Positions 206 to 14,260 of a stretch of 43,799 nt of DNA are shown in pieces; positions within the stretch are counted from its first letter, which is position 1; every line of letters starts with the position of its first letter. A model generated the notes under the pieces. That model saw nothing but the letters and a program-made list of their open reading frames with translations. It had not been told where the DNA came from and made no database searches. Source of the stretch: a virus; IMG/VR virus record IMGVR_UViG_3300025684_000022, positions 1 through 43,799 of that record; one strand, given 5' to 3'. A program made the position numbers and the translations under genes.

Positions 206-2113
206 TTACCAAGCGTAATCGAAGCTTTTAATTTTAGATATTTGATCTTTAATTGTTTTAGCGTAGTTTTTAGATTCTCTTTCGTAATAAGATTCAGCTT
301 GTCCGTATCTTTCTTCAGATTCTTCACCTTGTCTAATATAATCACAATACCTTGAATAATTATCTAGAATATTTGACATATGATTAGAAGCATCTCTTAA
401 TTTAGCTTCTCTACCTTTTGAATTTTCGCCAATTTTAATTTCGTCATATCTAGTCTTATCACCTTTAGCTAAACCTTCTTTAATTTGATTTGCTAATTGG
501 TCAATAGCATCTGCAACCATTTTATCAATTGGTAATGATGCAGCCTTAGTTGCTAATATTTGATTGTACCTATTCTTATTCTCAGTTTTAAAATCTTCAT
601 CTGATTTAAACGCAATTGCACCAGATTTAGCAGCTGCTCTTGCACTTCTTAATTGTTCCGTAGAATACTTTTGTCTAATTAGGTCTAAATTTACAATAAT
701 AACTCTATCAGAAACTTCTGCAATTCTTTTACCATTACTTAAACCAGAAGCATCCCAGCCTCTATATTTCTTATTTACGCCAATTTGATCAGCAGAACCT
801 TTTTTACCATCTTTTCTCCAAGTTCTATTCTTAGAATATCTAGACCAATCATTTGAGTAAAAATTTCTATCACCGGACATTGCCGCTAATAAAGTACCAC
901 CGCCCGGTACCATCTTCATCGCTGAGTATGAAGCGTCGGATGGTGTATATGGATTCTCTTTTTCATTATCTGAAATAAAGAAAATAATATTTGAAGAGCC
1001 ACCGTGGTTTTTAAATGCCTTTTGTGGTTCATTACTTACAATAAAGTCTTCATCTTGAATTTTATCTAATGCAACTTTAGTCGCCTGGTAAAATCCACCT
1101 GCTAAATCAGCTAAGTTTTTTCTTGCAAATTTACCTTCTCTACCACTCTGTAGAATATTAGATAGGATTGCACTAGAAATTTTTTCATTTAAAATTCCAT
1201 TAGATGCAGTAAAATCTGCAAAAGATTCATATAAAAATATATTTTCCATGTTTGTATTTTCTTGTAATTTTTTAGCAGCTAAATCCTTATCTTTTTTAGA
1301 AACATTATCTAGGTAAGATCCGTCTCCCCAGAATTTAACAACTAATTCAGTTTGAGTAGTTGAATGCATTCCTGGTTTGTAAACTGCAATATCTCTTAGT
1401 TTTTTATTAGAATCAATAGTTTTGTACATAAAGTCTAGTGCTTGCTTCTCGCTTTTAAATTTCTTTAATCCGGAAACACCGTCACTATAGATAACTTCAT
1501 AGTTTTCAGTAACTACTGATTCGTCTAGTGGATCTAATCCCCAGTAATTAGCCATATCATATCTTACTGGATAAATTGCAAAGTCACCTACATTACCTTC
1601 AGGTGATTCAATATTTTTAGTAAGATAATAATCTGTATTTACCATTAATTCTTCAAAACCATATTCTTCAGCATCAGCTTTCATTTCTTTCTTAAACATT
1701 TTAGCAACCTTAGCAAATCTATCAATAGCGATTATCTCTACAACATTGTCATTGTAATCTACACCACTATCTCCTACTTCTAAGTCTCCCTTAGCTTCGT
1801 TAAGTTTTCTAGACTTAGAAGATTTATTTAATTCACCAAGAATTTTAATACCCCATCTTGAAAGAGATACGCCATCTTCAGATACATTAAAATATTTTTT
1901 ATTTCTAGATTTCCATTGCTTGTGATCTCCAGAAAGTTCAGAAATAATTTTAGTAAATTCTTCTTTAGTAATTACACCATCCTTAATAGCCTCAATAACT
2001 GAGTTTCGTACACTGGCTGTTTTACCAACAGTTCTTGCCGGGTGGCTTTCAGTATATTTTCGTTTAAGTGTTAGTTTTTTACCTTCACCTAAGAATTCGT
2101 TAAATGTTTCCAT
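206..2113 (-). CDS. Putative injected multi-module head protein, 635 aa
   Basis: No enzyme family was recognised. The protein starts METFNEFLGE followed by Gly, matching the capsid-targeting-like motif of its neighbours. Similar Glu-ending segments recur inside: KLNE106/Ala, ESVVTE203/Asn and GILNE310/Lys, the last preceded by a second aromatic core (FADF near 298-301). These would divide the chain into about four modules: a basic helical one (11-106), an acidic mixed one (107-203), a small alpha/beta one (204-310) and a large C-terminal domain (311-635). The C-terminal domain is rich in Lys, Ser and Tyr and ends in a charged helical region. It lies 2 nt from the 133-aa gene and was probably co-transcribed with it. 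An injected effector, as T4 Alt is, would fit, but I see no convincing ADP-ribosyltransferase triad. Confidence 0.7.
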   Translation of the reverse strand: METFNEFLGEGKKLTLKRKYTESHPARTVGKTASVRNSVIEAIKDGVITKEEFTKIISELSGDHKQWKSRNKKYFNVSEDGVSLSRWGIKILGELNKSSKSRKLNEAKGDLEVGDSGVDYNDNVVEIIAIDRFAKVAKMFKKEMKADAEEYGFEELMVNTDYYLTKNIESPEGNVGDFAIYPVRYDMANYWGLDPLDESVVTENYEVIYSDGVSGLKKFKSEKQALDFMYKTIDSNKKLRDIAVYKPGMHSTTQTELVVKFWGDGSYLDNVSKKDKDLAAKKLQENTNMENIFLYESFADFTASNGILNEKISSAILSNILQSGREGKFARKNLADLAGGFYQATKVALDKIQDEDFIVSNEPQKAFKNHGGSSNIIFFISDNEKENPYTPSDASYSAMKMVPGGGTLLAAMSGDRNFYSNDWSRYSKNRTWRKDGKKGSADQIGVNKKYRGWDASGLSNGKRIAEVSDRVIIVNLDLIRQKYSTEQLRSARAAAKSGAIAFKSDEDFKTENKNRYNQILATKAASLPIDKMVADAIDQLANQIKEGLAKGDKTRYDEIKIGENSKGREAKLRDASNHMSNILDNYSRYCDYIRQGEESEERYGQAESYYERESKNYAKTIKDQISKIKSFDYAW

Positions 2114-2115
2114 AT

Positions 2116-2517
2116 TTATTTTATTTTAATTTTTGCTAAATTACCACGTGTTTCCTCATATTGAAATGAAAACTTAGACTTTGCAGTAAGAGTTCCCATT
2201 GAGAAAGAAACAAACGTTCCTTCTGGCTTTCTTACAGAAGTGTTATATGCAGCCATTGCATATGCTTCATCGTCAAAAATACCAATATATCTTTTTGAAG
2301 TTGTAGATCCAAATCTAGCTTCACCTTCTAATCTAACAGTTTGACCATTAAGATCTGCACTATTATGAGCAAATACTAAGTATTTAGTTTCGCCTTTCTC
2401 AGGAAGATTATCAGCATGTTCACCAAATGAAGTTCTATCATTATAGAAATAAGATCCAAACGGAATAGATTCGTTTAACTTTTCTCTAAAGTTATTAAAT
2501 GTTTTTAAGTTTTTCAT
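2116..2517 (-). CDS. Small protein with capsid-targeting-like N-terminus, 133 aa
   Basis: Family not recognised. The start MKNLKTFNNF followed by REKLNE and Ser matches the motif shared by the cassette; the predicted cut after Glu16 would leave a mature protein of about 117 aa. The remainder is mixed alpha/beta with many aromatic and Gly residues, no membrane segment and no cysteine. It sits 2 nt before the 635-aa gene and about 9 nt after the 617-aa gene in transcription order. The ATG has only an A/T-rich leader. I infer a head-packaged protein of unknown function. Confidence 0.65.
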   Translation of the reverse strand: MKNLKTFNNFREKLNESIPFGSYFYNDRTSFGEHADNLPEKGETKYLVFAHNSADLNGQTVRLEGEARFGSTTSKRYIGIFDDEAYAMAAYNTSVRKPEGTFVSFSMGTLTAKSKFSFQYEETRGNLAKIKIK

Positions 2518-2526
2518 ATTATATTT

Positions 2527-4380
2527 CTATATATTTTTTATAAAGTTATTAAATGTTAAGAATTCAACTTCTTCAGACTCAGCAAGAACTCCCATAGAAT
2601 CCTCTAGTTTAGTCTTTAACTCTCCATACATATTATGTATTGGCTTTGGAGTAAGCTTCTTAAATAGCGCCTCATCACCATCTAACATTGCATTTCTTAC
2701 CTGCGTCGCTGATATGTTCTTACCAGTTCTTGGTATTTCATAAAGTCCAAAATCAGGTCTTACTCCTAGATCTTCTCTATAAGTATCTTTATTTACTTGA
2801 AATCCATAAGTCTTCATTCTATCACTTCCTGTTCCCCATAATACTGGTTCGTATTTTGGCCTCATTGCATTGAACATAGTGTCAATACCACCAGTTGGAA
2901 TTACAAAAACTTCTTCAATTGGATATTTAGATTTTAAAGAGTTAATCATTGCTACTTGAGTCTCCTCATCGTAAGGTCTTTTAAATGCATCCTCTTTTTT
3001 CTTATTCTTAGCCTTTACTAATAGGATTACTACTGGATGTCCATTTTGTTTATGGATAGTCTCAACTACTTTAGCATGGCCTAGTGTAAATGGTTGGAAT
3101 CTACCAACAAACATATTAACTAATTTTTTACCTTGTTCTGGGTAATCTACCTTTAAAGCTTCTAGAATTGGACTTGTTTGTGTTTTAAGATTTTGGTTTT
3201 TTAAGTATGTTTCAAAATTCATAACTTCATCTTCTTTTACGTCTCCGACAATCAACCTTTGGATATTTTCGACTGTTTTATTTAACTGTACCATTAAATC
3301 CTTATTAATAATATCGGTTTCTTTAGTCCTCTTCTTTCTAAAACTACCTAATGCAATTTTAAAAAGCTCGGATAAAACTTTATTTTGTACAAGTGATATT
3401 GTTTTTTCATTCTTAATAAAAGATTTATTAAGTTCAAAACCTGGAAGTGATGCAAAATCAGCAGAATTAAAACTAGTTCCAATATACTTAGTTGCATGTT
3501 TATCAACATATGCATTAAATATAATTGAAATTAATTCAATATATCTTTCATCTGTTTTTTCTAAATCTAAATTAATTGTATTAAAATCGTAACCACTCAT
3601 GAATTCAACTAGATCTAGTATAGAAATCTGATACATGTCAGATGGTGTTCTATTACTTTTTACATCTCTATCAAATCTTTCTAGTTTAAAACTTTTTACA
3701 TTCTTACCCTCATAAAAATTAATAATAAATGAATCTATATCTTTATCTAATGTATTATTTAGTGCAGCACTAGAAGTTGCAGAATTAAATATATTGTAGA
3801 TAGCTCTGGTAAAAGATTGATCTTTAAATTTATTTTTAAAAGCCTCATCAGAAAGCTCTAATATATCTAATAAATTAGCAATCTGATCTTCCGATAGTTT
3901 GCCTTGAAATATAATTTGAGGCCTTTGTACATCCAATAGATCTGCCCAATGATAAAGTATATTAGGGTCTCTAATTACTTTTTTAATTTGAGTAGGATTA
4001 ATTGGACTTATTGTTTGAATGTGTGTTAATATTAAATTATTTTTAGGTAGGGCATCATATTCAATATCGATAGCCTTTTTAGTTGGTAAATAATCAAAAC
4101 CAAATTTCCAGTCTACTGGCAGCTTTTCTAAAATAGTAGGATCTAATGCTTTAAAGTAATTAATGGCGTTTTCATAATACTTAACAATAGTTCTATCAAC
4201 TTTATTCATAGGAGTCTTTGAGCCACTCTTATAGAATTCAAATTCTCCAGAGGTAGTTCTTTTAACATGGAATGAAGAGGCCTGTACCTTTTCAGATACA
4301 AGACTAGTTGATTTTATTAGATTAATAAAATCTTGCCTATTTGCTGATTCAAAGTATGTTTTTAAATTCTGTAATGCCAT
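2527..4380 (-). CDS. Ligase-like domain fused to NMNAT-like nucleotidyltransferase, 617 aa
   Basis: The C-terminal part (about 420-600) is a HIGH-superfamily nucleotidyltransferase. It carries GRFQPFTLGHAKV at 426-438, with the TxGH adenylyltransferase motif, and ISATQVR at 556-562, the ISxTxxR motif of NMNAT/NadM-type enzymes. These enzymes join a nucleotide to NMN or a similar phosphate substrate. The N-terminal part (about 35-240) has weak features of covalent nucleotidyltransferases (RNA/DNA ligase fold): VKR near 39-41, FGFDYLP near 93-99 like motif III, and YEGKNVKSFKL near 223-233 like motif IV. The catalytic lysine is uncertain. The protein begins MALQNLKTYFE then Ser, a variant of the cassette motif, has a second copy-like stretch (MNFETYL, 387-393) just before the NMNAT domain, and ends in FLTFNNFIKNI. 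NAD-related or RNA-end chemistry delivered with the phage DNA is an inference. Confidence 0.72.
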   Translation of the reverse strand: MALQNLKTYFESANRQDFINLIKSTSLVSEKVQASSFHVKRTTSGEFEFYKSGSKTPMNKVDRTIVKYYENAINYFKALDPTILEKLPVDWKFGFDYLPTKKAIDIEYDALPKNNLILTHIQTISPINPTQIKKVIRDPNILYHWADLLDVQRPQIIFQGKLSEDQIANLLDILELSDEAFKNKFKDQSFTRAIYNIFNSATSSAALNNTLDKDIDSFIINFYEGKNVKSFKLERFDRDVKSNRTPSDMYQISILDLVEFMSGYDFNTINLDLEKTDERYIELISIIFNAYVDKHATKYIGTSFNSADFASLPGFELNKSFIKNEKTISLVQNKVLSELFKIALGSFRKKRTKETDIINKDLMVQLNKTVENIQRLIVGDVKEDEVMNFETYLKNQNLKTQTSPILEALKVDYPEQGKKLVNMFVGRFQPFTLGHAKVVETIHKQNGHPVVILLVKAKNKKKEDAFKRPYDEETQVAMINSLKSKYPIEEVFVIPTGGIDTMFNAMRPKYEPVLWGTGSDRMKTYGFQVNKDTYREDLGVRPDFGLYEIPRTGKNISATQVRNAMLDGDEALFKKLTPKPIHNMYGELKTKLEDSMGVLAESEEVEFLTFNNFIKNI

Positions 4381-4392
4381 TATTATTAGTTA

Positions 4393-5043
4393 TTAAAACT
4401 TATTCATTATTTCAATTAGTTGACCGTTGTTGCTCATTTGATATCCAGAACATGTTAAACCAATTGTATCATAATTAGTTCCAGTAGATACATCAAACAT
4501 AATCCCACCATCAGATGAGTTGTATTGATCTAATACAAACATTAGTTCATATATTTCTTGGAACATTTTATCTTTAATTTTACTATCAATTCCACTACCA
4601 CATGTTACTGCAATTAAATAGTTTCTTCTTCCTCCTGGATTAAAGTTTGCTCTACCTTCGATTTCTCCACCAACAGTTGATCTCATTGTACCTGACCATC
4701 CACCTGCTGCAGGAACTGAAGATTGTTCAATTTCATATTTCTTATATTTTTTAATTACTTTAGAAATCTTTTCAGCTAATTGAACTGAATTCCTTCCTTG
4801 AAATATATCATATGAATCTTGTGTAATATCTCCTTGAACATTTAAATGTTCTTTATAGCTTGGTAATTTACCAGATTTTGCAGCGGCTTCAGCCTTTGCT
4901 AATACATTTTCATAAGAACCTCCCCATTTGTCAACAGCTATTTTAGCAATTCTAACCTTGTCTTCTAGTTTAGCCTTAATTCCTTTTTTACCAAATTGAA
5001 CCGATTCATTTAAGAACTGTTCAAATAATTCTACTTTTTTCAT
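4393..5043 (-). CDS. Protein with capsid-targeting-like N-terminus, 216 aa
   Basis: Family not recognised. It begins MKKVELFEQFLNE followed by Ser, one of the cleanest examples of the shared N-terminal motif; the predicted cut is after Glu13. Residues 14-110 are Lys-rich and helical. The C-terminal half is Gly/Ser-rich with likely beta strands (around GGWSGTMRSTVGGE and the Asp/Ser-rich stretch near 180). There is no membrane segment. It lies between the ligase/NMNAT fusion and the KTDG ligase-like gene with gaps of 12 and 3 nt, so it was probably expressed with them. A packaged protein is inferred from the motif and its company. Confidence 0.65.
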   Translation of the reverse strand: MKKVELFEQFLNESVQFGKKGIKAKLEDKVRIAKIAVDKWGGSYENVLAKAEAAAKSGKLPSYKEHLNVQGDITQDSYDIFQGRNSVQLAEKISKVIKKYKKYEIEQSSVPAAGGWSGTMRSTVGGEIEGRANFNPGGRRNYLIAVTCGSGIDSKIKDKMFQEIYELMFVLDQYNSSDGGIMFDVSTGTNYDTIGLTCSGYQMSNNGQLIEIMNKF

Positions 5044-5046
5044 AAA

Positions 5047-6348
5047 TTATCTTCCGTATTTTATAATTCCCATCAATTGGTTAATAGCAGCAAATGTTCC
5101 AGTTAGTTTATAGGTGTGTCCTTTGTATCTAAATACAATACCTTCAGTTGGTATAATAGATTCAATACCTCCAATTCTATCTAAACGCTCTAGTTCTTTA
5201 GCTACTTTATTTATCTGAGTTATATCTCCGCCCTTTTTAATCTTATCAGCTTCAGTTCTAATTTGATTATGTAGCCTCTGCATTTCCTTATCTGGATTTG
5301 CAGCCACAAAGTTAGAAGCGTTCTTTAAGATAACAGAACCTAATTCTAAGAAAAGATCTTCAAAAGGTCTAATGTTTTCTTTATATTTCTTTTTAACATC
5401 TTCTTTGTCAAAGCTTTTAATAAGAGCTGCTTTATCTTTTCCTAACTCTTTATCAAGTGATCTTAGATTAAGTGTTTTCTTATCTCCATAAGCCCATCTT
5501 AATAATAAGCCTTCTTTATGGTCTTGTTGTATGTCAGGGAAGTTTTTATCAATAGTTTCTCTCCACCACATTTCATGATATCTAGAAACCTCATCTGCAT
5601 CTGTTAATCCATAACGATCTCTTAATACTTCAACTTTTTTTATAAACTTAAGTTGGTTCTTTTCAAAATCAATATCTTTACCTATCTTAATAATTTGTGG
5701 TGGAATAACAGTAAAGACTTTACCAATATTAGCGTTAACTTTTTCTAAAGCAGCAGCAATTGATTTACCATACTTAGGCTCTTCGCTAATTATATTACCA
5801 TTACCATCTGTTATTTTAATTCCATGAAATTGAATAACGTCTCTATCATAATAGATAACATTTGGGTTTTTAGAGTAGATAAGCTCCATGTTCATAAAGT
5901 TCTTACCATTATCAAATGCTTCTAAATCTTTATCAGATAACTTGACTAGAGAAGTTGCTAAATCTTTAGCAGCAAAAATATAAGTTTCTTCAACTAATTT
6001 TGATGCATGTCCAGTAAACATATCGATAATACCATTAAGGTCTAATGGGCTTGCCATTTGTCCTTTATTTCTAGCAAACATTGCTTGGCCATCCTTTACA
6101 GTGACAAAAAGATTTTGTCCATCAGTTTTTTCAGTAGGCTCTTCTTCAAAATTAAGTTCACCACTAAGTCCAGATTGTATTAGACTTTTAAAGTCTCCAA
6201 ATGTTAATTGTTTATTATCAAATGGATGTGACATATGTCCTGCAGCACCACCTTCAAGTATAAGATCTTCATTAACCGAAAATGAAGGAGCCTCTTTCGA
6301 AGTCCTTCTTTCCAGTACAAATTCTCTATAAGATTGTAGTTTTTTCAT
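5047..6348 (-). CDS. Covalent nucleotidyltransferase (RNA/DNA ligase-like), head-packaged candidate, 433 aa
   Basis: Residues 74-77 read KTDG within EKTDGQNLF, matching motif I (KxDG) of the ligase/capping-enzyme superfamily, where the Lys takes AMP or GMP. Other superfamily-like pieces follow in order: ARNKG (92-96), FMNMELIY (151-158, like motif III), EGIVFRY (402-408, like motif IV) and KLTG (414-417, like motif V). An EGLLLRW stretch (279-285) could be an alternative motif IV. The long helical insert (about 300-390) is unusual. The N-terminus MKKLQSYREFVLE resembles the cassette motif, and LILE32/GGAAGHM looks like a second processing site that would leave the catalytic domain intact. It probably joins or modifies nucleic-acid ends; whether the substrate is RNA, DNA or protein cannot be told from sequence. 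Confidence 0.72.
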   Translation of the reverse strand: MKKLQSYREFVLERRTSKEAPSFSVNEDLILEGGAAGHMSHPFDNKQLTFGDFKSLIQSGLSGELNFEEEPTEKTDGQNLFVTVKDGQAMFARNKGQMASPLDLNGIIDMFTGHASKLVEETYIFAAKDLATSLVKLSDKDLEAFDNGKNFMNMELIYSKNPNVIYYDRDVIQFHGIKITDGNGNIISEEPKYGKSIAAALEKVNANIGKVFTVIPPQIIKIGKDIDFEKNQLKFIKKVEVLRDRYGLTDADEVSRYHEMWWRETIDKNFPDIQQDHKEGLLLRWAYGDKKTLNLRSLDKELGKDKAALIKSFDKEDVKKKYKENIRPFEDLFLELGSVILKNASNFVAANPDKEMQRLHNQIRTEADKIKKGGDITQINKVAKELERLDRIGGIESIIPTEGIVFRYKGHTYKLTGTFAAINQLMGIIKYGR

Positions 6349-6349
6349 A

Positions 6350-7999
6350 TTATGCTAATGATGATTGTAAGATTCCAGCTGCTTTACCATAGTCTCCGTC
6401 AGATTTTCCTAAGATACCATTAACAACCTCGTCTGCTTTAGCCTCGTCAAATTCATCTCCGAATGCTTTTTGTAATATTTCGTATGCGTATTCTTTAAAA
6501 TCTTCATCAGATTTAATTTCAGCCTCATTTACAGATTCAAAAAGGGAATTAAAATCATCTAATAAAGATTGTCCCATTGCTTCTTCTTTAAGTTCTTGTA
6601 AAAATAGAGCAGTTCCTTCAACAATTCCTTGGCCAGACCATCCTGCTGCATTAGCAATATCAGAATAGTATTTGTCTAGAATCCCCTTTAAAGTAGTAGT
6701 TCCTAGTTTTACAAAGTGTCCACCTAGACCTGGTAACTTAATCTCTAAAGCCGCCATTTTACCTTTAATGTTTCTAGAAACAATTTTTTCTCTATGGAAG
6801 TTAGCGTCTGACATTGCTTCTTCAAAAAGATATTTAATACAACCTCTAATAGACTCAGGAGACATTGCACCAAAATCTGCTAAAGTCTTATAGAATATTT
6901 TCTTATATTGTGTAACTACCTTTTTAGCGTCTCTTTTACCTTCGACGTTAATAGCTTCATTAACTACTGATTCAAAATAATCCTCATAATCACTAACACT
7001 ATCCGGACCCCATATATCAGCTAAAACCTTTTCAATATCTTTTCTTTTACCTGTTAATTTAACTTCTGGGTAACCATGGTAGCCTTCTTCTTTTTCAACT
7101 TCCATTTTAACTTTGTTCTTCTTTAAAGACACAGTTAAAGGTTTAAATTTAGTTGGGTGTATGCCATCATCGTTTCCAAATTCTATACCTGAAAGAGATG
7201 CTTCATTAATTACTGATTCATTGCACATTGAAACTAATTCTTGTGCAATCTTTTTTGCTTTAGAACCTTTATGTCCATAAGATTCAACTGTATCTAAAGC
7301 ATCTTCCATTTCCATGCCGTGTAATTCTCCCATGTCTCCTCCTCTTTCATCTAAAAGATCCTGTAAGATATTTTCAGCTTCTGATTCATTAACTACTGAT
7401 TCAAAAGCAGGATATAATTCATCGTAGCCTTTACCGTAAATGTCTGCCATTAACCATTCTTTATTAGCCTCATCCCATAAGTATACAAATTCAGCTCCGC
7501 CGCCATCTGCAACATCTCTTAAATAATTACTTATATTTGTAATAGTACCTTTAGATGGTTTAAAATCTCCATAGAAATTTATATTTTTTACATCTTTTTC
7601 TAAACCTGAATTATCTCCTTTTTTAAGGACAAAGTCTACATTTTTACCACTCTTAAATGTTGATTTAATAATAGGCAACATATTTTCAGGATATGAGTCA
7701 TAGTGAGTATAAACAGAAGTGATATTACCTCTTTTATCAATCTTACCAAATTGGCCTCGAGTACCTTCCTCTATTAAAGAAACTGATTCATTAATACCAA
7801 TCCCTCTTAGTTTATTAAAAAATTCAGATCTTTGCTCTTCAGATAATTCTTTGATTGCACCAACGCCATATTCTGACAATAGTGTTTTGAATGTAGCTGC
7901 TTCATTGGATCTCTTAGCTTCCTGTTTTTCTGCTAAATCAAAAGCTGCTTTTTCAATTTTTGATGCTGAAAATTCAGCAAATGAGTTTAATTTTTTCAT
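6350..7999 (-). CDS. Putative prohead-processed polyprotein with repeated Glu-ending linkers, 549 aa
   Basis: The chosen start is the ATG at 7997-7999, giving MKKLNSFAEF like its neighbours; a GTG one codon upstream is less likely. Five similar linkers occur: NESVSLIEE78/Gly, FESVVNE205/Ser, NESVINE266/Ala, FESVVNE348/Ala and LFESVNE492/Ala. They divide the chain into six modules: an acidic helical one (1-78), an alpha/beta one with a THYDSYPEN stretch reminiscent of small phage proteins bearing an HWDGYP-like motif (79-205), short helical (206-266), beta-rich (267-348), a larger helical one (349-492) and a C-terminal helical one (493-549). All linkers match the small/hydrophobic-x-Glu then Ala/Gly/Ser pattern of T4 gp21 cleavage. 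A scaffold-like role for some modules is possible. Function unknown; processing is inferred. Confidence 0.72.
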   Translation of the reverse strand: MKKLNSFAEFSASKIEKAAFDLAEKQEAKRSNEAATFKTLLSEYGVGAIKELSEEQRSEFFNKLRGIGINESVSLIEEGTRGQFGKIDKRGNITSVYTHYDSYPENMLPIIKSTFKSGKNVDFVLKKGDNSGLEKDVKNINFYGDFKPSKGTITNISNYLRDVADGGGAEFVYLWDEANKEWLMADIYGKGYDELYPAFESVVNESEAENILQDLLDERGGDMGELHGMEMEDALDTVESYGHKGSKAKKIAQELVSMCNESVINEASLSGIEFGNDDGIHPTKFKPLTVSLKKNKVKMEVEKEEGYHGYPEVKLTGKRKDIEKVLADIWGPDSVSDYEDYFESVVNEAINVEGKRDAKKVVTQYKKIFYKTLADFGAMSPESIRGCIKYLFEEAMSDANFHREKIVSRNIKGKMAALEIKLPGLGGHFVKLGTTTLKGILDKYYSDIANAAGWSGQGIVEGTALFLQELKEEAMGQSLLDDFNSLFESVNEAEIKSDEDFKEYAYEILQKAFGDEFDEAKADEVVNGILGKSDGDYGKAAGILQSSLA

Positions 8000-8028
8000 C
8001 ACTTATTTGTTTATTTTGTTTTATATTA

Positions 8029-8610
8029 TTATTTGATGAACATATTTAATTCGTATTTCCATCCATTTCTGCCGTAGATTCGAACATGTATCGCTTTACG
8101 CTGTTCTTTTCCTTTTTTATATAGAGTTAATGTATCTTTTTTATATTCTCCTTCTCTAGCCTTAAAGGGTGCATCAACAAATTTATTATCATATTCCTCC
8201 TTGTCCAATTCATATCCCATCTTATTGACATATTTCTCAACCTCATCAATTACTGTTGAGAAATGCTTGTGATAGACTTGAAAATATTTAGATCGATCGT
8301 CCTCTTCTTTCCAGTCGTCAGCCCATGTATCTTTACTACGGTAAGGATTAGCTCCTCTTGACATCATAAGGTCAAAGATTTCTTTTTTCGCTTTTTTATA
8401 ATCAGTATCTTTATATCCGTCAAGTTCTTCTTCAGGTGCAATTGCAATTACCATGTCAGTTGCATGTTTATACAATTTGTGTAATTCATCATTATCCATT
8501 TTATCACTAAACGTATATGGATTTTTCTTAGATTTTTTTACGCTAATTTTAATTGGTTTTAATTGGTTTGCTTCTCCAATAAATTGCTCAAATAATTTAA
8601 TGTGTTTCAT
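8029..8610 (-). CDS. Protein with capsid-targeting-like N-terminus, 193 aa
   Basis: Family not recognised. The frame stays open 17 codons further upstream, but the ATG at 8608-8610 gives MKHIKLFEQFIGE followed by Ala, an almost exact match to the cassette motif and to T4 MKTYQEFIAE/A, so I use that start. The predicted mature chain (from Ala14) is highly charged, Lys- and Asp-rich, mostly helical, with a basic C-terminal strand region. A candidate late promoter lies 33 nt before the start codon, so this may be the first gene of the cassette transcript that runs to the left window edge. Head packaging is inferred. Confidence 0.68.
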   Translation of the reverse strand: MKHIKLFEQFIGEANQLKPIKISVKKSKKNPYTFSDKMDNDELHKLYKHATDMVIAIAPEEELDGYKDTDYKKAKKEIFDLMMSRGANPYRSKDTWADDWKEEDDRSKYFQVYHKHFSTVIDEVEKYVNKMGYELDKEEYDNKFVDAPFKAREGEYKKDTLTLYKKGKEQRKAIHVRIYGRNGWKYELNMFIK

Positions 8611-8643
8611 GATGTTTGTTTTTATTATTTGTAATATTATTAG

Positions 8644-8654
8644 ATTATATATCC
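8644..8654 (-). promoter_or_regulatory. Candidate late promoter GGATATATAAT
   Basis: On the minus strand the sequence reads GGATATATAAT, overlapping the last codons of uvsW and lying 33 nt before the start of the 193-aa cassette gene. Identical copies occur at three other gene starts in the window. No shared -35 element is visible, as expected for a T4-type late promoter (TATAAATA) rather than a host promoter. Confidence 0.5.
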
Positions 8655-10153
8655 CCCTCAAAAGTTACGTTTTTAATATCATACTTAAACTTCTGTTCTT
8701 TATAGATTTTTTGCCTAGCCTTTGAGTGTCTTATTAAGTAGTTATCCCAGTCCGGAGAGCTTAAATCATCTACAAAATCAATAATGTTTACGCTATCCTT
8801 TGATTTATGTTGCCTTAAACCCCTACCAATAGATTGTCTAATGATTACTTCTGATTTAAATGATTCTGTAAAGAATATGTTGTGGATTTTCTTGATGGAT
8901 ATACCAGTTGAGAATGTACCATATGAAGCGACGATAACGACCTCTTCTCCTGCTTCCATTTTCTTTTTATATTCTTCTCTAATATCCTTATCGATTCCGC
9001 CATCAACATAATAAACTATTTTATTACTTTCCTGCCTAAGTTTGTCATATATCTTTCGGCCATGCTCAATCCTATGAAAAAGAACAAGGCTATTTCTCTT
9101 AACCCTTGAGATTATACTTGTTATAAAGTTAAGTCTTCCAGGGGAATTAATAATATAGTTCTGTTCAAATTTAAAAACATCTTTGCTTTCATATCTATTC
9201 TGTGACATCTCTCTAAAAGCATCCTTTGTAGATTGCGCAGCATAATCCATCTTAATTACCTTAACATGACACTGTGCAATATGTCCTTCATTTTGTAAAA
9301 AGTTTGCAGATACTTCTGTAATTACTGGCCCCGTATAAGCCATAAGAGTAAGTCTATCTAATGTGTTTGGTTTTGGTATCGTACCAGAGAGTCCGCTTCT
9401 ATATTCAGCGTTAACACATTTTTGTAGAATAGTTTTAATTGATGTAGACTTGGCCTTATGTGTTTCATCAATAATAACAGCATCAAACTGCTCAAAATAT
9501 TCTTTATCTTTTTTAACAAGAGATTGATATGTACCAATGACAACATTTCTGCCCGGTCTAATCTTTTGACCAGAGTAGATTTGTTGTACTTTAATAGTTG
9601 CCCTGCCTTTCCAATTATAGTCTAAAAAATCTTCAGTGGCTTGTACTACAAGAGAAACATTAGGTACAATAAAGAGTATTCTTTTTGCCTTTTGTTTTTC
9701 TAACATATATGCTACTGTAAGAAATGAAATTAGAGTTTTTCCGGCAGAAGTTGCCAATTCAGACAAGCACTTCCTAAATTTAAGAATATTAAATGCCGCT
9801 TCTATTTGATAATCTCTTGGAGTTATTTGAGAGCCCTCAAAAAATTCTAGGGCCCATTCGGTAAAATCTTCTTGATTAATATTTCTATCAAACAGTTCAG
9901 TAATACCGTTTATTTTTAATTCGTATTTATATTCTTTACAAACATTCATCACCTCTCGCCAAAGGCCAGAAGGAATCCATTTGTCATCTTTTATATAAGA
10001 TATGTAGCCATCCCATAATCCTTTTTTAACAAGAGGGTGAAATCTCCAATTTTCTACTCTCCTGTTTAAAGAAATATTGAGCTGTTCGATTTCCATTTCT
10101 GTAGCCGAATCAACTCTTAGCAATTGCTTATTATCTGTTAAACTTATTTCCAC
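8645..10153 (-). CDS. uvsW: UvsW-like superfamily 2 recombination helicase
   Basis: This 502-aa protein matches T4 UvsW, an ATP-driven helicase/annealing enzyme that moves branched DNA in recombination and fork restart. Seen in order: an N-terminal domain with RFHPLVKKGLWDG like the UvsW DNA-binding head, Walker A ELATSAGKT (132-140), DETH box (229-232), SGT motif III (256-258), and motif VI QSIGRGLR (440-447). Length equals the family norm. The start is a GTG at 10151-10153; the preceding in-frame codon is a stop, and the N-terminus aligns with UvsW from its first residues. It lies 21 nt after the uvsY-like gene, the same uvsY-uvsW pairing as in T4. Confidence in the family is high. Confidence 0.93.
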   Translation of the reverse strand: MEISLTDNKQLLRVDSATEMEIEQLNISLNRRVENWRFHPLVKKGLWDGYISYIKDDKWIPSGLWREVMNVCKEYKYELKINGITELFDRNINQEDFTEWALEFFEGSQITPRDYQIEAAFNILKFRKCLSELATSAGKTLISFLTVAYMLEKQKAKRILFIVPNVSLVVQATEDFLDYNWKGRATIKVQQIYSGQKIRPGRNVVIGTYQSLVKKDKEYFEQFDAVIIDETHKAKSTSIKTILQKCVNAEYRSGLSGTIPKPNTLDRLTLMAYTGPVITEVSANFLQNEGHIAQCHVKVIKMDYAAQSTKDAFREMSQNRYESKDVFKFEQNYIINSPGRLNFITSIISRVKRNSLVLFHRIEHGRKIYDKLRQESNKIVYYVDGGIDKDIREEYKKKMEAGEEVVIVASYGTFSTGISIKKIHNIFFTESFKSEVIIRQSIGRGLRQHKSKDSVNIIDFVDDLSSPDWDNYLIRHSKARQKIYKEQKFKYDIKNVTFEGDI

Positions 10154-13885: not shown

Positions 13886-14260
13886 TTAAATTCTTTTACC
13901 CATTGCAGCACCAAGAGCGGCACCAACTAATCTGGAAGTTAATAAATCGTAAAAAATACCTTGTTGAATTCCTAAAACTTTAGCAATAACTTTTCCAACT
14001 GATTTACCTAATGCAAATCCAGCTAAACCACCTATAATAGAACCTAAGATGCCTTCATTAGTCATCTCTTCATTTAACCTATCTAAATCATAAGTCCCAT
14101 CCTCTCTTTTATACTCAGCTTCAAATGTTTCAATGGCAGCATCTATTTGAGCTTCTAATTCAGGAGTCCACTCTTCTTGTAAACCCTCTTTAATTAAAGA
14201 ATAGTCCTGCTCGCTAATTTCGTTTTCTACTAAATAGTCGTTAAATGTTTTCATATTCAT
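13886..14260 (-). CDS. Glycine-zipper protein with capsid-targeting-like N-terminus, 124 aa
   Basis: The N-terminus MNMKTFNDYLVE/N matches the head-targeting motif of the 1-8610 cassette; an ATG two codons in (14252-14254) would give MKTFNDYLVE, closest to T4 MKTYQEFIAE. Residues 13-69 are very acidic. LIKE25/Gly and EMTNE69/Gly are further candidate protease sites; a cut after Glu69 would release a hydrophobic, Gly-rich segment (GILGSIIGGLAGFALGK, then VGAALGAAMG near the C-terminus) with glycine-zipper spacing, likely to enter membranes. An acidic pro-region masking a membrane-active peptide is a reasonable reading. It lies apart from the main cassette, between the tail block and the RuvC-like gene. 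Function is inferred. Confidence 0.65.
   Translation of the reverse strand: MNMKTFNDYLVENEISEQDYSLIKEGLQEEWTPELEAQIDAAIETFEAEYKREDGTYDLDRLNEEMTNEGILGSIIGGLAGFALGKSVGKVIAKVLGIQQGIFYDLLTSRLVGAALGAAMGKRI

Follow-up and report, generated by a model that had tools for sequence, protein, structure and literature searches.

A putatively head-targeted polyprotein of a T4-related jumbo phage: exchangeable cassettes joined by probable prohead protease sites that may double as recombination seams

The window analysed in this study, a stretch of 43,799 nucleotides (IMG/VR record IMGVR_UViG_3300025684_000022), is a fragment of a T4-related phage. Sequence inspection and profile scans revealed genes for UvsW, gp32-like, primase, RuvC-like, neck and baseplate proteins. 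The source is a T4-related jumbo phage, the structural genes of which are closest to those of Bacteroidota phages and uncultured huge phages; the nearest relatives of its gp6-like protein come from uncultured huge phages (LR756500, 40% identity), Tenacibaculum phage pT24, Prevotella Lak phages and Sphingomonas phage PAU. Block 206-8661 of the window is a row of ORFs, most of which begin with capsid-targeting-like (CTS-like) peptides, e.g., MKHIKLFEQFIGE/A, MKKVELFEQFLNE/S and METFNEFLGE/G (here and below, a slash marks a putative cut). Gene A of this block occupies 6350-7999 on the (-) strand and encodes a protein of 549 aa (polyprotein A), as counted from the ATG at 7999; a GTG codon stands in frame ahead of this ATG, and the frame 6350-8002 (-) is open for 550 codons from that GTG. 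The features of gene A and of two neighbouring genes are as follows:

8029-8610, (-) strand: neighbouring CTS protein, single product, MKHIKLFEQFIGE/A
7970-7999, (-) strand: capsid-targeting-like peptide MKKLNSFAEF, the only one in the gene A ORF
7766-7999, (-) strand: residues 1-78, N module with a long helix and a LSEEQRSEFFNKL helix, putative cleavage after E71 and E78
7766-7780, (-) strand: linker SLIEE78/G
7385-7765, (-) strand: cassette M1, residues 79-205, phrog_1987 domain, GTRGQFGKID...YTHYDSYPE
7385-7402, (-) strand: linker ESVVNE205/S, DNA GAATCAGTAGTTAATGAA
7202-7384, (-) strand: cassette M2, residues 206-266, SEAENILQDLLDERGG...
7202-7219, (-) strand: linker ESVINE266/A
6956-7201, (-) strand: cassette M3, residues 267-348, ASLSGIEFGNDDGIHPTKF...
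6956-6973, (-) strand: linker ESVVNE348/A, E348 invariant in 29 homologues
6524-6955, (-) strand: cassette M4, residues 349-492, GKRDAKKVVTQYKK...
6524-6538, (-) strand: linker ESVNE492/A, E492 and A493 invariant in 29 homologues, pLDDT <50 at 489-493
6353-6523, (-) strand: cassette M5, residues 493-549, usual C-terminal module, ending in SSLA
4393-5043, (-) strand: neighbouring CTS protein, single product, MKKVELFEQFLNE/S

Five Glu-ending linkers had been proposed for gene A in a preliminary description made from the sequence alone, and all of them (LIEE78/G, ESVVNE205/S, ESVINE266/A, ESVVNE348/A and ESVNE492/A) were located where it had placed them. They recur more often than expected by chance: with up to three mismatches allowed, the window contains four copies of the linker DNA GAATCAGTAGTTAATGAA where 0.16 are expected, and none of 100 shuffles reached four. 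Three of these copies are linkers of gene A, while the fourth is found at 1505-1522, in ORF 206-2113. The loose motif [VILMF]-x-E-[AGS] is met in polyprotein A at five extra places (71, 394, 461, 488 and 519), at least two of which, 394 and 461, lie inside confidently predicted folded helices, so that the Glu residues at these two places are inferred to be probably inaccessible. Because the motif also occurs within folded modules, it cannot define a cut site alone.

As far as resemblance of sequence can tell, the claim that the chain carries a single targeting peptide was also upheld. MKKLNSFAEF shares the [K]-x-F-x-x-F pattern with the other head-targeted ORFs of the block (MKHIKLFEQFIGE, METFNEFLGE, MKKVELFEQFLNE), and the N-terminus as a whole (MKKLNSFAEF...GINE71/S...LIEE78/G) resembles a short targeting peptide ending at a prohead-protease-type site. 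In the alignment of 29 homologues of polyprotein A, E71, E78 and G79 are conserved at ≥90%; pLDDT is below 50 at 71-78, and the N module gives weak matches to phrog_18562/22695. There are no cleavage data, but the N-terminal propeptide is probably cut twice, at E71 and E78.

An AlphaFold2 model of polyprotein A was built with 29 homologues; a MAFFT alignment of module fragments (A1) was misaligned and was left out of the folding. The model has a mean pLDDT of 74.7 and a pTM of 0.34, and its internal stretches of pLDDT <50 (71-78, 201-203, 262-286, 337-348 and 489-493) coincide with all five linkers, which thus lie between predicted folded modules. The models of M2 and M3 are weaker because few homologues are available for each. 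No match at E ≤ 0.001 was obtained when the whole model was compared with the PDB by Foldseek. Taken with the independent movement of the modules described below, the model meets the picture of separately folding modules joined by unfolded putative protease sites.

The search of IMG/VR for relatives yielded 108, of which 80 loci were kept. Among these, modules are permuted, duplicated, replaced or moved into another head-targeted gene, with about 48 arrangements of 18 hand-defined module families (some arrangements are cut by contig ends). The module order is M4, M3b, M1, M2 in locus L016 and M1, M1, M3, M2, M4, M5 in L008/L033; the position of M1 varies among L014, L016 and L048, and M4 precedes or follows M1 depending on the phage. 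M3 is a tandem duplicate in L034, and a copy of it with 90% identity lies within a different CTS gene (L016, 18553-20382). The DNA of M2 is 99% identical to that of L033, where M2 comes after M3, not before it, whereas in L013 (93% identity) M2 is the last module of another CTS protein. Neighbouring modules of gene A show 99%, 87% and 93% DNA identity to L033, and the alignments of 99% and 87% share 21 bp, which are the linker. Only the presence of the loose motif within modules speaks for the possibility that the modules make up one folded protein, with the linkers being coincidental Glu-rich loops. That possibility is barely tenable in view of the low pTM, the low pLDDT at every linker and the independent module histories, and the permuted module order already contradicts it. 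The modules had been described as unrelated-looking, which their independent movement between phages bears out, and the two computational checks suggested along with that description, structure prediction and a comparison of homologues for module shuffling, both came out in favour of the polyprotein reading: the linkers are low-confidence stretches, and the junctions of shuffled modules fall at them.

One and the same cassette lacks the linker when it is C-terminal and carries it when another cassette comes next. Cassettes with the final residues SSLG, WDIEAFA, LHSLCNA and YSKSQK at the end of a protein have internal counterparts SSLGESVVTE/, WDIEAFAESLVTE/, LHSLCNESVVTE/ and YMKSQNESVVTE/, respectively, and M5 is without a linker when last and has ESVVTE when internal in L048. 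Linkers are therefore elements added to cassettes. Likewise, M16 follows a targeting peptide when it is first (MKKFEEFIGE/GKITLKRR) and a linker when it is internal (ANVNE/SRIVIKRK). In the L048 protein (6861-8795), one further cassette stands after the normally C-terminal M5 with its appended ESVVTE.

Beyond what the preliminary description had covered are a second polyprotein, the conservation of the linkers at the DNA level and the exchange of cassettes. The second polyprotein of the window is organized as follows:

206-2113, (-) strand: polyprotein B (gene B), CTS METFNEFLGE/G, then M16-M9-M10-M17
about 1796-2083, (-) strand: M16
1505-1795, (-) strand: M9
1505-1522, (-) strand: linker ESVVTE, DNA GAATCAGTAGTTACTGAA
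1250-1504, (-) strand: M10
1184-1249, (-) strand: internal CTS-like peptide ENIFLYESFADFTASNGILNE, directly before M17
209-1183, (-) strand: M17

The linkers of polyprotein B are KLNE106, ESVVTE203 and ILNE310, and cassettes M1, M2, M3, M3b, M7, M8, M9 and M10 are common to gene A and gene B. A full internal CTS-like peptide (ENIFLYESFADFTASNGILNE/K) is held ahead of M17. Polyprotein B looks like two head-targeted genes fused, since M17 stands in its own ORF in some siblings (L036, L072 and L017).

Other products of the window carry CTS-like elements as well. ORF 2527-4380 (-) encodes a cytidylyltransferase-like protein with the CTS-like C-terminus ...GVLAE/SEEVEFLTFNNFIKNI, which is conserved in L079, L034 and L007 and is possibly a C-terminal targeting propeptide; T4 Alt, for comparison, is cut at both ends. 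Early in this protein, L079 has EKIDGSSF, which is like the KxDG motif of nucleotidyltransferases/ligases, while the window has EKVQASSF and L034/L007 have KIQA/KVQA; judged by these altered residues, most members of the family seem to have lost activity. ORF 5047-6348 (-) encodes a CTS protein with the ligase-like motifs EKTDGQNL and EGLLLRW, which is 36% identical to a protein of Microcystis phage Mel-JY01 and 34% identical to one of LR756500, where the counterpart also adjoins a cytidylyltransferase-like gene. The small protein encoded at 13886-14260 (-) has the CTS-like start MNMKTFNDYLVENE and a glycine-rich hydrophobic C-terminal half.

The junction motif was derived from the upstream flanks of each module in other proteins, which gave 155 distinct contexts; neither these contexts nor the breakpoints considered below are statistically independent, because the phages are related. 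Glu is found at position -1 in 143 of the 155 contexts and at a distance of one or two residues from it in a further 11 (154/155 in total), against a background of 9.8% Glu. At the Glu sites, P3 is Val, Leu or Ile in 96% (41%, 30% and 25%, respectively), P2 is mostly Asn or Thr, and P1' is Ala, Gly or Ser in 89% (54%, 28% and 7%, respectively). T4 gp21 cleaves after L/I-X-E (PMC9026906), and gp245 of phage SPN3US cleaves after A-X-E (PMC10052503). The junction consensus, [VLI]-x-E/[AGS], is close to the gp21 motif, in line with the fit to the T4 prohead protease pattern claimed at the outset, and represents a widening of it, as P3 is most often Val, unlike the Leu/Ile of T4.

The window, a 44-kb fragment, does not cover the genes for the prohead protease or the capsid protein; both were found on sibling contigs, with gp23 (PF07068) in 8 of 15 and an S77 prohead protease (PF03420) also in 8 of 15. 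In the major capsid protein (MCP) of the siblings, TGINE/[SA] is invariant some 25 residues into the chain, and their protease domain is followed by RVNE/S, ahead of a Glu-rich scaffold-like region. The same [hydrophobic]-x-E pattern is thus common to the targeting peptides, the linkers, the MCP and the protease, with cleavage of the last two being an inference. Long ORFs of L092 and L093 (662-831 aa) have the S77 protease as N-terminal domain, VNE/S after that domain and a scaffold-like, Glu-rich C-terminal region, and cassette M8 is found inside the protease-bearing ORF of L093. Computationally, the reading of gene A as a head-processed polyprotein is thus supported, while there are no data on cleavage, presence in the virion or number of products.

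The DNA of the linker, GAATCAGTAGTTA[AC]TGAA, is conserved over and above its protein sequence. Codon statistics were restricted to loci found by protein alone, and those for all loci were dropped, because loci found by the DNA pattern are preselected for that codon pattern. GTA GTT encodes Val-Val in 44 of 50 linkers, whereas outside the linkers it does so in 30 of 144 pairs (Fisher p 2e-17); Ser is encoded by TCA in 81% of linkers against a 37% background. In IMG/VR, the 20-mer GAATCWGTAGTTAMTGAAGC is present in at least 120 viral stretches; among the matches listed, it is in frame as ESVV[NT]EA in 154 of 154 cases. Most of the ORFs concerned are long, and a single protein can hold as many as 12 linkers. 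Bacterial and archaeal genomes totalling 257 Gb contain the 20-mer in one stretch only. This sole match, L215 (CAMOYX010000005.1), is a MAG contig labelled Tenericutes and is possibly a phage contig or a chance match. A degenerate 18-mer gave 49 matches in 12 sibling records, on a single strand in each genome, and its reversed-pattern control gave none.

Breakpoints were mapped from DNA alignments of ≥80% identity between polyprotein genes. Of 125 internal alignment ends, 102 (82%) fall within 6 nt of a linker, compared with 14% at random, although the pairs are not independent. A first test, which used protein alignments and a narrow linker regular expression, put alignment starts within 10 residues of a linker in 30% of cases and alignment ends in 44% (12% at random) and was replaced; its enrichment was only partial because other linkers are in use at many junctions and because alignments extend into the linker that both proteins share. 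On the simplest reading, the linkers provide homology for recombination, though the mechanism is inferred, and neither common descent of an inserted linker nor an RNA constraint is excluded as the cause of the DNA conservation. Conservation of the linker DNA beyond its protein sequence and the fall of breakpoints in the linkers would also be expected if the linkers were recombination seams alone in an uncut, bead-string protein, the Glu and its neighbours being kept through conservation of the seam DNA. This is improbable, as many junctions without ESVVNE DNA (LIEE/G, KLNE/A, LCE/A, LLNE/A and VEE/G) keep the hydrophobic P3 or the P1 Glu before Ala, Gly or Ser, and as the motif is also seen at the end of the targeting peptides in single-product proteins, in the MCP and behind the protease domain.

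Functions of the modules are mostly unrecognised, and to call them effectors is a guess. M1 matches the phrog_1987 profile (E 7.1e-11, profile positions 2-118 of 128), and a relative of it stands alone in Streptococcus phage YS387, upstream of the portal gene; M6 weakly resembles a zinc ribbon. M16 of polyprotein B was modelled as a winged helix, with the T4 MotA activation domain as the first Foldseek match (probability 1.00, TM 0.57 of the target, E 0.08) and with similarity to MarR-type proteins (Z 7-8). A small helical ribosomal protein resembles M2 (Z 7.7) no more than chance would allow, and weak matches of cassettes to Cas2b/Csn2 were not accepted as evidence. A partial sample of 616 cassette segments fell into 227 families, 77 of them with at least two distinct sequences. 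Pfam scans of 141 cassette representatives hit only 7 families; when about 140 cassettes were scanned with Pfam, PHROG and PADLOC, DUFs, a zinc finger and cytidylyltransferases were nearly all that emerged. The polyproteins of the window are far poorer than those of L201, L148, L145 and L149, which have 8-12 strict linkers and, for the most part, unknown cassettes. By tblastn against named phages, no relative of polyprotein A was found except for a weak M1 match, and none of polyprotein B; no cultured representative is therefore at hand.

Alternatively, the chain could be part of the prohead core or scaffold, like T4 gp22, gp67 and gp68, the pieces of which would be cut and leave the head to make room for DNA, the modules being undelivered filler. 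T4 core proteins are indeed cleaved into multiple fragments (PMC9026906). The N module forms a long helix, a copy of M8 lies in the Glu-rich region to which the L093 protease is fused, and, at the matching place in gene order next to UvsW, the distant relative LR756500 has a short helical protein of 287 aa without a linker array and with a similar LSDDDRKKFYDEI motif. As an inference from this one genome, the short protein suggests that cassettes were added onto a simpler core-associated protein. PHROG and Pfam gave no match to gp22, gp67 or gp68, although homology to these was not specifically sought. Filler leaves unexplained the conserved folded domains, the stand-alone occurrence of phrog_1987 elsewhere, the winged helix, the zinc ribbon and the trading of these cassettes with a second CTS gene, and the scaffold alternative is considered unlikely, though less so than an uncut chain.

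The linkers, the exchange of modules at linker junctions, the conservation of the P1 Glu and of the linker DNA, and the protease and capsid protein motifs of the siblings were computed directly. It is likely that the product of gene A is a polyprotein that is packaged into the head and cleaved by the prohead protease, its linkers doubling as recombination seams, where cleavage, packaging, injection, effector function and recombination are inferred in the absence of proteomics. The single N-terminal targeting peptide would carry the whole chain into the prohead core, as in T4 internal proteins, and a gp21-type (S77) protease would cleave after the Glu of [VLI]-x-E/[AGS] in the unfolded linkers, which would free the propeptide and, in equal amounts, some five small folded proteins; these proteins would most likely be injected along with the DNA. 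Near-identical linker DNA (~18-21 bp) would allow homologous recombination between linkers to insert, delete, swap or duplicate cassettes in frame, every exchanged cassette bringing its own cleavage site, and the phages may so trade head-delivered effectors inside a few long genes. That all this amounts to a cassette-exchange system for such effectors, with a coding linker of ~18-21 bp as both protease site and recombination seam, is held with less assurance, as the somewhat favoured interpretation.

According to the literature, T4 IPI, IPII, IPIII and Alt have capsid targeting sequences and are matured by the prohead protease gp21 (PMC9026906, PMC3012670). The genes described here share with those of the T4 internal proteins a short N-terminal targeting peptide ending in hydrophobic-x-Glu, small payloads that vary highly between related phages, and the S77 protease and gp23 in the same phages. 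In T4, however, each gene has one payload and one targeting peptide, whereas here one peptide serves up to ~12 cassettes, separated by repeated cleavage sites with conserved DNA. Head proteins of the giant phages SPN3US and phiKZ have propeptides cut several times at an A-X-E motif (PMC10052503). They resemble polyprotein A in having multiple cuts after Glu within one head protein (cuts that are inferred here), but those cuts trim a discarded propeptide, whereas the [VLI]-x-E sites separate individually folded, exchangeable modules. RNA-virus polyproteins likewise yield several folded products from a single chain with protease sites in linkers; here the setting is a tailed DNA phage, with the protease inside the prohead and modules shuffled between phages and genes. 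Integron-like and other cassette arrays also consist of exchangeable units with recurrent short DNA between them, but here the units are fused in frame in a single ORF and the seam is protein-coding. In the literature, with subscription papers and preprints outside our coverage, multiply cut head propeptides are known, but no phage polyprotein with exchangeable modules was found.

Few phage proteins act in the infected cell earlier than the internal ones: IPI of T4 inhibits a restriction enzyme, and Alt of T4 modifies RNA polymerase. Many such proteins could be delivered efficiently and in equal amounts by means of one tag and interchangeable, self-releasing cassettes, an arrangement that would also be evolvable and would represent a natural design for multi-protein delivery via phage heads. 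The linker DNA provides a sequence handle with which uncharacterised head-delivered proteins can be mined from metagenomes, and makes it testable whether a short coding repeat is maintained as a recombination seam. If the cassette-exchange interpretation is true, a phage lineage can load, reorder and trade dozens to hundreds of small effector modules in a few head-targeted genes.
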